DNA from: a virus
Strand: one strand, 5' to 3'
DNA: 35,054 bases
Virus record (IMG/VR): IMGVR_UViG_3300031885_000068
Location: 1 to 35,054 of that record
The position numbers were made by a program, and so were the translations under genes. Each line of letters begins with the position of its first letter. Positions within the stretch are counted from its first letter, which is position 1. A model generated the notes under the pieces. It saw only the letters and a program-made list of their open reading frames with translations, did no database searches and had not been told where the DNA came from. Shown here piece after piece: positions 10,736 to 34,143 of this stretch.

Positions 10736-11704
10736 TTAAGCACCGACTACGCACTGCATCCGCGGATTATTACAAGTAAGCTGACCCATGACGGCCAAAT
10801 ATTGCACAACGGCATCTTGATCCACCGGCTCCCGCTTTCCACCCAATGGTGCGAAAAACAGATCCGAGTGAACAATAAACCGAAGATAATCTGTATTGAT
10901 TATATAGGTTAGCGGTGTTGCAGCATCGTCAGTAGCATTGTCTAACACAACGTTAGCATCCATGAACTGAAGACTTCTAAATCCAGCCTTTGCCAAACTC
11001 GAAGTATCTTCAGTCAAACGCTGAATTGCGGTCAAACTATTGTGAAAATAGCTCCAATGCGTATTTCCTGCTAAGAAAAGCTTAGGGCTATCATTACCAA
11101 CAGTAACTTTAATCCATGCTTTTAAATATGCGTCTTGAATCGTGGCAGCTGAAGCAGGTTTTGCTAAGTCAGACGCAAACGATATAGTAGCATTCTTGGC
11201 CCAGGCATAATCACTGCGCGCAATTCCACCATAGATGTTGGTAGGGGTCGTAGCAACTGCTGATCCCAAACCAATAAACTCAGTGCCTCCAAGTCTAGAT
11301 CCGTCAGACTTTAAAGAAGTCTGAAGTTCAATCTTAAGCGCCTTGCGGGCAGCTTTTACCTTAGTGTCCATCAGATTGATAATCTGAGTTTTGCTGCCCT
11401 TATTCTTACGCATGGTCATGCCGTCAATTGTTACCGGGGCTTGGCATTGCCGCCACGGAAACACAAAATCGGTTAACCCTTCATAAGAAGCATTATTCAG
11501 TTGTGCATAACCCGAAAAATACTGTACGGCGGGCAATGCAAACTCTGCCGGTTCTCTAAGCTCATAGCCTCCATCTACTTTTTCAACTTTGCCTTTGTCG
11601 ACTAGTTCATTTACCAGCGCAACAGAGGACATGATGTTGTCAGCAGCTTCCTCGCGTGTGCGAAATAAAGTGCTAGCAACAATTTCATTATATGTTAATG
11701 GCAT
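10736..11704 (-). CDS. Major capsid (coat) protein, HK97-fold class
   Basis: The protein has 322 residues. The opening MPLTYNEIVASTLFRTREEAADNI, the E-loop-like region KVDGGYELREPAEFALPAVQYFSGYAQLN, the VFPWRQCQAPVTIDGMTM segment and the spine-helix region TQIINLMDTKVKAARKAL are characteristic of a coat-protein family common in environmental podoviruses. No N-terminal protease or delta domain is evident, consistent with a separate scaffold. It follows the scaffold gene by 17 bases, with AGAGGAAATATG as the ribosome site. Length and context agree with coat function. Confidence 0.82.
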   Translation of the reverse strand: MPLTYNEIVASTLFRTREEAADNIMSSVALVNELVDKGKVEKVDGGYELREPAEFALPAVQYFSGYAQLNNASYEGLTDFVFPWRQCQAPVTIDGMTMRKNKGSKTQIINLMDTKVKAARKALKIELQTSLKSDGSRLGGTEFIGLGSAVATTPTNIYGGIARSDYAWAKNATISFASDLAKPASAATIQDAYLKAWIKVTVGNDSPKLFLAGNTHWSYFHNSLTAIQRLTEDTSSLAKAGFRSLQFMDANVVLDNATDDAATPLTYIINTDYLRFIVHSDLFFAPLGGKREPVDQDAVVQYLAVMGQLTCNNPRMQCVVGA

Positions 11705-11721: not shown

Positions 11722-12876
11722 TTACATTTCATTGACCATGGAAGCGATAGTGTCACGGGTTCCCATTTTCGCCGGTGCCATTGCGCCGCCACCACTTCCT
11801 TTAATTCCCGCAGCTCTGTCAGCTTTCGCCATCTTTGCGCGAGATTCTTCTAGTTGTTTTGCTTTAAGTGCAGATTCACGCTTTTGATTTATCGCATCCC
11901 TAACATCAGGATTAGCTCTAAGCGCAAGTTCATATGCATCGTCAAGCATTGATCCAATATCAGCGCTTGGATCTGCTTTAGATAAGGCGAGCGCCTTTTG
12001 TCTAAAGGTTTCCCCAAGGTCTTCGAGATAAGGATGCAAGGGGTTCCCATTCTCATCTGTCGCATCACGCCACTGCTGCACTAGCTGATTAAGTGCAGTC
12101 TGTTGGTGCGATGTAATGCCCTGTTTAAGCATATTGACTGTGTCCTTTATCTGTCCAAACTCTTGCTGAAATTCTTCAGGGAGTTCAAAAGATTGTGGGC
12201 TTTGTTGGAACTGCTGCGGCTGCGCGCCTTGCGGCATTGCTTGGCCTTGTGTTCCAAATATAGCCCTAAAGTCAATTCTTCCAGGGTTTAAAGCTATAAC
12301 CTGCTTTACAAATTCTGTCGGATCTGTTCGCTGTAGCTTATCCCATGCTAGCGCGCTTCCGATGGCCTTCTCTACTGGCACACCCATCAGCGCCAGATCT
12401 TGCGCGTAGGGTTTAACTTCACTCTCAAGAGATTCATATCTGCGCATTACGCTAGACATCTCTTGGAATTTTTGATTCATGCCGCGCGTCATCTCGCGGT
12501 TATACCTAGCAATAATGCTCTGCTCTTTTGCTGGTAACGTTTTAAAAAACGCTTTCTCCTCTGCATTCCAGTTGGGCGGAGGTATGATCGGATTAAGGTT
12601 CGCTTCGCCAGCTGGTATACCGACAACCGGTGCCACATGCGTAGGTGCCGGATCCATTCCATCTGCCTTAGCCAATATCTTTTCAGCTTTTTGCTTCGGC
12701 TTATAAGTGCCAGATTTGCTCTTTTTCTCGAAAGCCTCTAGCTCTTCTTTAGGCTCCGGCGCCGCGACTGTCTCAGATTTCGACGTTTCATCTGGCAAGT
12801 CTGCGATAACATCTTTAGTGTCAATTTCATCTGCAATCACAGATCTCAGATCTTCCCCACTGGTTTTATTATCCAT
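11722..12876 (-). CDS. Scaffolding protein
   Basis: The protein has 384 residues. It is acidic at the N-terminus, with a proline-rich NPIIPPPNWNAEEKAFFKTL segment (about residues 95-115). Long helices follow (REMTRGMNQKFQEMSSVMRRYESLE), then a Gln-rich central part (MPQGAQPQQFQQSPQSF), and a basic/Gly C-terminal tail with AKMAKADRAAG that could contact coat subunits. The P-W-x-x-E-K-x-x-F pattern and high helix content are typical of podovirus scaffolds, encoded immediately before the coat gene. SD GGAGG precedes the ATG (CAACGGAGGAAACGCAATG). Confidence 0.75.
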   Translation of the reverse strand: MDNKTSGEDLRSVIADEIDTKDVIADLPDETSKSETVAAPEPKEELEAFEKKSKSGTYKPKQKAEKILAKADGMDPAPTHVAPVVGIPAGEANLNPIIPPPNWNAEEKAFFKTLPAKEQSIIARYNREMTRGMNQKFQEMSSVMRRYESLESEVKPYAQDLALMGVPVEKAIGSALAWDKLQRTDPTEFVKQVIALNPGRIDFRAIFGTQGQAMPQGAQPQQFQQSPQSFELPEEFQQEFGQIKDTVNMLKQGITSHQQTALNQLVQQWRDATDENGNPLHPYLEDLGETFRQKALALSKADPSADIGSMLDDAYELALRANPDVRDAINQKRESALKAKQLEESRAKMAKADRAAGIKGSGGGAMAPAKMGTRDTIASMVNEM

Positions 12877-32339: not shown

Positions 32340-32546
32340 ATGAATTGTTTAAAGAATTTAAGAAAAAAACTAGGTTTTACTTTCAACGAAATGGGAGCAA
32401 AAACAGGCATTTTGCCACAAACTTTGTGGGCTATCGAAGCTAAAAAGTATAATTTTAGCCTTTCAACTTTAATCAAGTTAAAGCAAAGTTTAAAACTAGA
32501 TTGGAGTGAATTAGGGAAGATGATAGAAGAGGAATTTAAGGAATAA
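32340..32546 (+). CDS. XRE-family repressor (HTH)
   Basis: The protein has 68 residues and is an HTH of the lambda Cro/XRE class: KKLGFTFNEMGAKTGILPQT, then LWAIEAKKYNFSLSTLIKLK. The HTH covers nearly the whole protein, with an acidic end EEEFKE. It is one of only two plus-strand genes. It should bind the operator in the divergent/face-to-face region and switch the early operon off. No cleavable (CI-type) C-terminal domain is present. Confidence 0.7.
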   Translation: MNCLKNLRKKLGFTFNEMGAKTGILPQTLWAIEAKKYNFSLSTLIKLKQSLKLDWSELGKMIEEEFKE

Positions 32547-32547
32547 A

Positions 32548-32802
32548 ATGACAACAAACATATACGGCGGAGAGCTGAGCGAAACATTAAAAGACGCGGT
32601 ATCCCGGCTAAGCCAAAAGCCGCTTAATACTTGGAAAGTAGCAGAACCATTACGAACTGCAGCGGCGCTTGTAGAATGCCGCGATCCCAGAATCGACGGC
32701 ATCATTAAGGACGTGGGAGAAAAGGAGCTGGCGCATATGATGGCTGCGATCTTTTTGGGCCTGCTAGACCGGATCAACACGTTCTCAGAAACTGGATTTT
32801 AG
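32548..32802 (+). CDS. Unknown protein in the repressor operon
   Basis: The protein has 84 residues, SD AAGGAATAAAATG, one base after the repressor stop. Helical with MTTNIYGGELSETLKDAVSR and a C-terminal ELAHMMAAIFLGLLDRINTF. No family recognised. Co-expressed with the XRE protein, so a modulator of it is plausible. Its 3' end overlaps the end of the convergent lipoprotein gene by 4 bases. Confidence 0.5.
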   Translation: MTTNIYGGELSETLKDAVSRLSQKPLNTWKVAEPLRTAAALVECRDPRIDGIIKDVGEKELAHMMAAIFLGLLDRINTFSETGF

Positions 32803-32999
32803 TGGCCGAACGTTACGTTGACGCGCTGGCTGCCCATAGCTCCGGTAGTTTTGTAATTCCCATAAGGATGAGGATATTTTTGAACATGCCACTCTGGCTC
32901 TTGGCCTGGCAACCAAGCTTTTTGATCTCGGTTCCAATATTGTGGCTGCGGCATACAAGCAGACAGGCAAACGACAATAAGTAGTGTTAGTATTTTCAT
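32799..32999 (-). CDS. Small lipoprotein with its own promoter (possible superinfection-exclusion protein)
   Basis: The protein has 66 residues. Signal peptide MKILTLLIVVCLSAC ends in lipobox LSAC with Cys15. The mature part is short and aromatic/Pro-rich (MPQPQYWNRDQKAWLPGQEP, then YPHPYGNYKTTG). SD AAGGGGTGAG is excellent. It is separated from the lysis genes by a terminator and has its own sigma70 promoter, a moron-like arrangement. T5 Llp-type lipoproteins of similar size mask receptors on infected cells; an outer-membrane spanin is the alternative. Function inferred. Confidence 0.65.
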   Translation of the reverse strand: MKILTLLIVVCLSACMPQPQYWNRDQKAWLPGQEPEWHVQKYPHPYGNYKTTGAMGSQRVNVTFGH

Positions 33000-33109: not shown

Positions 33110-33143
33110 AAAAAAGCGGATAGCCTGGTCAGAGGCTATCCGC
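33110..33143 (-). terminator. Intrinsic terminator after the lysis genes
   Basis: GCGGATAGCC at 33116-33125 pairs with GGCTATCCGC at 33134-33143 (10 bp, loop 8). On the minus strand it is followed by TTTTTT (33115-33110). It lies 25 bases after the endolysin-holin stop and should end the late transcript there. Confidence 0.88.
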
Positions 33144-33167: not shown

Positions 33168-33398
33168 TTATGGAAGAATCTGTTTTTGCGCAATCCGTTT
33201 TTCTACCAAACTCCAGCCTTGGGCGATTAGGTATAGCAATACTGCAATTAAAATCTGAGTTGTGCCGTCGGTCCACTGGTTAACCAGCGTAGGGTCTAAT
33301 CCGATCCCAACTAGCACGCCAGCTAGCAATGTCATTAGTTTTCGAATTACGCTTTTCCCAACACTTCCAAGTATCCACTGCTTAATTTTTTCAATCAT
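33168..33398 (-). CDS. Holin reading frame with its own start (inside the fusion)
   Basis: ATG at 33398 follows GGGGG by 9 bases, so independent initiation is plausible and would give a 76-residue holin: MIEKIKQWILGSVGK, two membrane segments (about residues 25-40 and 48-65) and a basic end. The pattern resembles small phage holins of the Pam3-gp28 type. It would let the enzyme cross the inner membrane. It is the in-frame 3' part of the endolysin-holin reading frame. Confidence 0.5.
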   Translation of the reverse strand: MIEKIKQWILGSVGKSVIRKLMTLLAGVLVGIGLDPTLVNQWTDGTTQILIAVLLYLIAQGWSLVEKRIAQKQILP

Positions 33399-33881
33399 GT
33401 TTTTTTTCCCCCAAAGATTAACTTCATCAAATTTATCGAGCATTGCTTCAATGCCATTGATCTGATTTCTTCGCTGATTACCGTATCCGCTTGCATGTCG
33501 CTCCAGGACCCGCGTAACGTAGTTTGCTGTTTCTTCGGGGACGTGAAGTTGATAATAGTCCCAAGTCTGGCCAGGATATTTTTCCAGAAGTTTTTTAACA
33601 TTTCCCATTCCCCAGTTATAGGCGGCTAGTGCAAGTTCGGTAGTTTCAAACATGTTTAGCAAGTGCGCTAGATAGGCCGAACCAATTTTGACATTTTGCT
33701 CTGTGTCGAATGGATCGTAAGGCTCTTTGATTTTAAGCTTAGCCCACCATTCCCGCCCGGTTGCAGGCATTAGCTGCATCAGCCCACAAGCCCCTACAGG
33801 GCTTTCAGCTTGCGGATTGAACGCGCTTTCGACAGATATCACAGCCCTAACCAGTCTGCGAAAACTATCCGATTCAAACAT
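33168..33881 (-). CDS. Endolysin (SLT lytic transglycosylase) fused in frame to a holin-like membrane domain
   Basis: The protein has 237 residues. Residues 1-140 are an SLT domain: catalytic Glu18 in AVISVESAFNPQAE, GLMQLMPATG at 33-42, and AYNWGMGNV near 86-94. It has no signal peptide. Residues about 162-237 look like a small phage holin: MIEKIKQWILGSVGKSVIRK, then a short membrane helix LMTLLAGVLVGIGL and ILIAVLLYLIAQGWSLVEKR. The join lies at GGGGGAAAAAAAAC before an internal ATG (33398). One A fewer would end the enzyme at TGA overlapping that ATG. Real fusion, slippage site or sequencing indel are all possible. Confidence 0.75.
   Translation of the reverse strand: MFESDSFRRLVRAVISVESAFNPQAESPVGACGLMQLMPATGREWWAKLKIKEPYDPFDTEQNVKIGSAYLAHLLNMFETTELALAAYNWGMGNVKKLLEKYPGQTWDYYQLHVPEETANYVTRVLERHASGYGNQRRNQINGIEAMLDKFDEVNLWGKKNMIEKIKQWILGSVGKSVIRKLMTLLAGVLVGIGLDPTLVNQWTDGTTQILIAVLLYLIAQGWSLVEKRIAQKQILP
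33398..33415 (-). other. G5A8 homopolymer junction between endolysin and holin domains
   Basis: On the minus strand the sequence is TGG GGG AAA AAA AAC ATG in the endolysin frame. It contains A AAA AAC in the correct phase for -1 slippage. A -1 shift would add H-D and stop, giving an enzyme without the holin part. Loss of one A from the DNA or mRNA gives GGG AAA AAA ACA TGA, a stop overlapping the holin ATG as ATGA. Confidence 0.6.
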
Positions 33882-34128
33882 GTTTAATCACTGCCCAAAT
33901 AACACTAACTGCTACCGAAATAAGCACCCCTATTTTCGCGAGAGACTCAGCCCTTCCAAAATTAGAGGCTTTTTCATGTTCATGTTGGCGAAGTAAGCAC
34001 ATGTCTTTGGTCACAAAACGCTCATGGAGATCGCACCTAAGCTCGTTCATAGCGCTAGTTAAATACTCCACTCTTTCCGAGATTCTAATTAGAAGTTCCT
34101 CGTTTGTTTTGTGCGTTGCTTCTAACAT
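33874..34128 (-). CDS. Small protein with C-terminal membrane anchor in the lysis block
   Basis: The protein has 84 residues from ATG 34128 (a TTG at 34143, directly after the upstream stop, would add 5 residues). The N-terminal 55 residues are a charged helix (ELLIRISERVEYLTSAMNEL, then RCDLHERFVTKD), followed by a C-terminal membrane segment (AKIGVLISVAVSVIWAVIKH). This is the layout of XhlA-type lysis accessory proteins. The stop overlaps the endolysin start by 8 bases. Confidence 0.55.
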   Translation of the reverse strand: MLEATHKTNEELLIRISERVEYLTSAMNELRCDLHERFVTKDMCLLRQHEHEKASNFGRAESLAKIGVLISVAVSVIWAVIKHV

Positions 34129-34143
34129 TGCACTATCCAGCAA

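Follow-up and report, generated by a model that had tools for sequence, protein, structure and literature searches.

A lytic transglycosylase and a holin-type domain in one reading frame, with a separate internal holin start, in an uncultured tailed phage

Results

A single frame joins a transglycosylase to a holin

On the minus strand of the window, the whole 35,054-base record of an uncultured virus analysed here, one open frame of 237 codons carried a lytic transglycosylase domain followed by a holin domain, which kept a start codon and a strong ribosome site of its own. An intrinsic terminator followed the frame. The locus carries the paired lysis genes of an uncultured tailed phage: the endolysin, a lytic transglycosylase of family GH23, comes first, and a two-helix holin resembling PF23987 follows it. 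We propose that this one gene gives both a membrane-tethered transglycosylase and a free holin, a reading to which we attach about an even chance. The elements of the locus are listed below.

33168–33881, minus strand: joined lytic transglycosylase-holin frame, 237 aa (open frame; SLT match; AlphaFold2 mean pLDDT 83.9)
33492–33869, minus strand: predicted SLT/GH23 catalytic domain, residues ~5–130, with Glu18 (PF01464; Slt70 1sly; pLDDT; Foldseek)
33399–33491, minus strand: interdomain linker and helix, residues 131–161 (pLDDT <50 at 134–136, helix from 138)
33400–33412, minus strand: G5A8 tract at the join, its G5 being a Shine-Dalgarno-like site for the internal ATG (anti-Shine-Dalgarno duplex)
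33168–33398, minus strand: holin domain as judged by homology, 76 aa from the internal ATG (Met162)
33306–33365, minus strand: predicted first membrane helix, residues 173–192 (hydrophobicity; AlphaFold2 helix)
33189–33266, minus strand: predicted second membrane helix, residues 206–231 (hydrophobicity; AlphaFold2 helix)
33116–33143, minus strand: intrinsic terminator at the end of the transcript, behind the joined gene (11-pair stem, then T6; -20.9 kcal/mol, z -5.4)
33874–34143, minus strand: 89-aa protein encoded upstream, with a single membrane helix at its C terminus; its gene shares 8 nt with the joined gene
32799–32999, minus strand: 66-aa predicted lipoprotein (LSAC lipobox) beyond the terminator, with no Pfam match

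An earlier sequence-only reading of this DNA had given the frame, its coordinates and its lengths correctly, leaving out the strand, and had recognised in it a transglycosylase and a holin with a separate internal start. These elements stood (SLT, E 5.1e-27; holin HMM, 44.1 bits). Of the two explanations that it offered, a switch controlled by the homopolymer was not supported, and an indel is still a serious contender.

The transglycosylase domain

The features that had been picked out by eye, Glu18 and the segments GLMQLMPATG and AYNWGMGNV, were all present, and PF01464 matched residues 9–102 with 94 bits, far over its cut-off of 21.3. With phmmer, the domain was closest to the catalytic domain of the soluble lytic transglycosylases (Slt70 1sly, E 1e-12). 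Glu18, the catalytic glutamate of the ES motif, was invariant across 26 aligned sequences. The pLDDT of the AlphaFold2 prediction was about 97 over the first 130 residues, and the predicted catalytic domain superposed on Slt/Slt70 with an rmsd of 1.8 Å (Foldseek). This prediction was built from the rows of the SLT alignment only, because MAFFT misplaced the holin rows when they were aligned with the fusion. On its sequence, the N-terminal part falls within the GH23/SLT (PF01464) family, and it is predicted to cut peptidoglycan to 1,6-anhydro products.

Most SLT relatives were virion proteins or host enzymes and had no C-terminal membrane helix. In a GC-rich phage, an SLT protein of 179 aa carried a membrane helix at its C terminus (L017:5388–5924); its gene directly follows a second SLT gene in tandem (end 5384). 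This protein is an independent junction of an SLT domain to a membrane segment, and we counted it in support of the joined gene.

The holin domain and its relatives

Taken in isolation, the C-terminal domain scored 18.9 bits (E 0.0016) against PF23987 (Phage_holin_10), which is under the curated 27-bit cut-off. A free 62-aa holin found in loci L014 and L018 was over that cut-off (32.6 bits for L014), and the L014 holin was 39% identical to the C-terminal domain. An HMM made from 32 distinct free-standing phage holins matched the domain with E 4.8e-12; the same model gave 10.0 bits for the best of 5,000 shuffles and 2.9 bits for the next-ranked ORF of the window. By homology, the C-terminal part is an entire holin, and more precisely a divergent relative of PF23987 reached through the L014-type subgroup, not a Pfam-certified member.

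An alignment-based search with the L014/L018-type holin matched 47 viral loci. No fusion was seen in the 45 whose frames were inspected, the holin being each time a separate gene of about 60 aa with its own ATG. It was likewise unfused in six prophage hits and in phage Pam3, where the lytic enzyme gene lies 13 nt ahead of the separate holin gene. The lack of fusion in all examined holin relatives speaks against the joined gene, as does the textbook ATGA overlap obtained, as described below, when one base is removed; the terminator placed directly after the gene speaks for it.

Large open frames at the prophage holins were, on the evidence of their sequences, long frames lying upstream of the holin, and were rejected as fusions. 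In most examined loci from L167 to L213, a protein of about 270 aa encoded upstream overlapped or abutted the PF23987-type holin gene. It had a signal-peptide-like N terminus and, in the three members tested, no Pfam match. The two genes form a conserved pair, perhaps encoding a spanin.

The G5A8 tract and the junction

The join, ...NLWGKK-NMIEK..., was encoded by TTTGGGGGAAAAAAAACATGATTGAA, and the tract was located directly before the internal ATG (33398). On the strand as deposited it is C5 (33408–33412) and T8 (33400–33407), the complement of the G5A8 described earlier. The removal of one A shortened the enzyme to 161 aa (...WGKKT), with a stop TGA (33397–33395) overlapping the ATG; the addition of one A ended it at 163 aa. 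The ATGA overlap expected from the sequence-only reading was therefore found, and the statement that many other junctions use it was fair but loose, 4-nt overlaps being present at 7 of the 54 junctions in the gene list.

Alternatively, A7 may be the true length of the tract, or at least the usual one. The locus would then consist of two ordinary genes, for an endolysin of 161 aa and a holin of 76 aa, coupled through ATGA, and the A8 would stem from an indel made in sequencing or assembly, or be a variant carried by a minority of the population. We regard this as a serious contender, somewhat short of an even chance. The deletion of one A yields exactly an overlap of the kind used elsewhere in the window, the start region of the holin is complete, and the holin is separate in every examined relative. 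Against this, the window has five further A8 tracts, all inside genes and all crossed in frame, so that tract lengths look reliable and the record does not look error-prone.

No second example of the junction was found. A search with its exact pattern matched no relative, and searches with the 89-aa protein, a 745-aa protein and the isolated holin found no close relative covering it. None of 26 terminase-related phage records (including Pam5 and ctMlz233) covered it either; two of them gave weak partial SLT matches only, inside a 583-aa frame. Judged by the terminase, only L082 (78%) was close kin; it is 5.9 kb long and without lysis genes. The region had no nucleotide similarity to known phages. 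The join was seen once because no close relative covers the junction, which also counts against the joined gene.

A strong ribosome site precedes the holin start

The purine-rich site that had been noticed before the internal ATG is supported by the calculated pairing. Of the 719 ATGs of the minus strand, that of Met162 was among the top 3% for its anti-Shine-Dalgarno duplex, which reached -8.4 kcal/mol as compared to -3.0 kcal/mol for the first ATG of the fusion itself. In strength, its site lay between that of the start at 11704 (-5.8), which is weaker, and that of the start at 12876 (-9.5), which is stronger. A run of at least four G followed by at least seven A occurred once in the window for 0.045 expected, and this one occurrence provides the internal ATG with its ribosome site. 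Since the site is strong, a free holin would be expected at any tract length. The frame has, at the level of the sequence, an in-frame internal start with a ribosome site and a stop shared by both polypeptides.

We propose the following model for the joined gene. As recorded, the A8 sets both domains in one frame, and translation from 33881 would give a 237-aa enzyme ending in a holin-type hairpin. The internal ATG and its ribosome site would give the free 76-aa holin from the same message; we infer that both products are made. The long form would be anchored in the inner membrane, keeping its enzyme part on the cytoplasmic side, and may join the holin assemblies, so that the enzyme would reach the wall when the holin triggers.

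One sub-case of the joined gene, whose probability overlaps with that of the general reading, is that the holin start is unused and only the fusion is made. The protein would then be a pure endolysin with a C-terminal anchor, and the upstream 89-aa membrane protein would be the holin. The gene for this protein is directly upstream, and phages Enc34 and AP1 share such a layout, in which a small holin precedes an endolysin that carries its membrane domain at the C terminus (PMC8943055, PMC8879335). The internal ribosome site, on the other hand, is among the strongest on the minus strand, and we consider the sub-case improbable.

No evidence for a frameshift signal

The tract had also been described as a possible homopolymer-controlled switch. 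In such a switch, ribosomal, transcriptional or replication slippage on the A8 would set, in a programmed or phase-variable way, how much of the enzyme is fused and how much is free. The heptamer A_AAA_AAC is indeed in phase for -1 slippage, as had been stated, and the other two frames stop within a few codons. However, A8/T8 tracts were at chance frequency in the window (6 for 5.7 expected), and in-phase slippery heptamers were common, with 48 in the 11,113 codons of the gene list, 14 of them A_AAA_AAN. No stimulatory RNA structure was visible downstream (z 0.1 as compared to shuffles), and the search with the exact junction pattern found no relative in which conservation could be examined. 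On the tract counts, the heptamer counts and the RNA folding, the frameshift signal was rejected as unsupported, and we hold the switch to be very improbable.

A more elaborate model would have the tethered transglycosylase and the free holin from the internal start share the hairpin, the long form acting as a brake on, or a passenger in, the holin assembly, and variation between A7 and A8 in the population toggling the tether. We consider it unlikely, if a little less so than the fusion-only sub-case.

Neighbouring elements

The upstream 89-aa protein matched no family over its cut-off and is possibly a second holin-like protein. The predicted lipoprotein beyond the terminator is possibly an outer-membrane spanin, an assignment which is uncertain. 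Two short frames beside the lysis terminator (32340–32802) were on the plus strand, when the other likely genes of the window were on the minus strand; the first resembled a helix-turn-helix regulator. Elsewhere on the minus strand, the segment 14630–15262, among structural genes, gave a weak match to family-2 glycosyltransferases, and the segment 21266–22465, just before the terminase genes, encoded a ParB N-terminal domain joined to a methyltransferase domain.

Discussion

The route by which endolysins with a C-terminal membrane domain cross the inner membrane is not yet understood (PMC8943055). The presence here of a recognisable holin domain of the free-standing type, with its start kept, suggests that such endolysins can originate when an enzyme gene fuses with an adjacent holin gene, and that the fused and free holins could co-assemble. 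The locus is probably either one gene with two lysis products, as a rare variant of something known, or two ordinary neighbours with a one-letter difference in length.

Comparison with known systems

Holins and endolysins are normally separate, as the sequence-only reading had stated, yet endolysins with C-terminal membrane domains have been published: M4Lys of phage BSPM4, Enc34 ORF39 and LysAP of phage AP1 (PMC7143992, PMC8943055, PMC8879335). M4Lys and LysAP lyse Escherichia coli when expressed, and lose this activity without the membrane domain (PMC7143992, PMC8879335). A literature search found no description of an SLT enzyme with a holin of the free-standing type behind it and an intact internal start.

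Other systems share parts of the arrangement. In phages of Gram-positive bacteria it is common for an endolysin gene to yield two polypeptides by means of an in-frame internal start, as experiments have validated (PMC9430671). As in LysP7951, CTP1L and others, one frame here contains an internal ribosome site and a shared stop, and would give a short C-terminal product; the short product of CTP1L is a wall-binding domain, whereas here it would be a holin. The TpeE-family protein of Clostridium sporogenes is a holin-endolysin fusion (PMC9527704) and similarly places both functions in one polypeptide, but its holin is N-terminal, that of the present frame is C-terminal, and the families differ. 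Pam3 gp28, of Phage_holin_10 (PF23987), is also a small holin, and its gene follows that of the lytic enzyme; unlike the present domain as recorded, PF23987-type holins were always separate genes in the examined relatives.

The closest resemblance is to M4Lys, Enc34 ORF39 and LysAP. The joined protein, like them, has an N-terminal wall-cutting domain and a C-terminal membrane domain, of two helices in Enc34 and of two predicted helices here; it is of similar size (about 227–237 aa) and has no obvious signal peptide. The gene for a small membrane protein lies upstream, as in Enc34 and AP1. Their catalytic domains are PHA02564 or GH24, whereas that of the joined protein is GH23/SLT, and its membrane part differs from theirs in matching a family of free-standing holins and in having a strong start of its own. 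The joined protein may thus work like the Enc34, M4Lys and LysAP proteins while standing outside their families.
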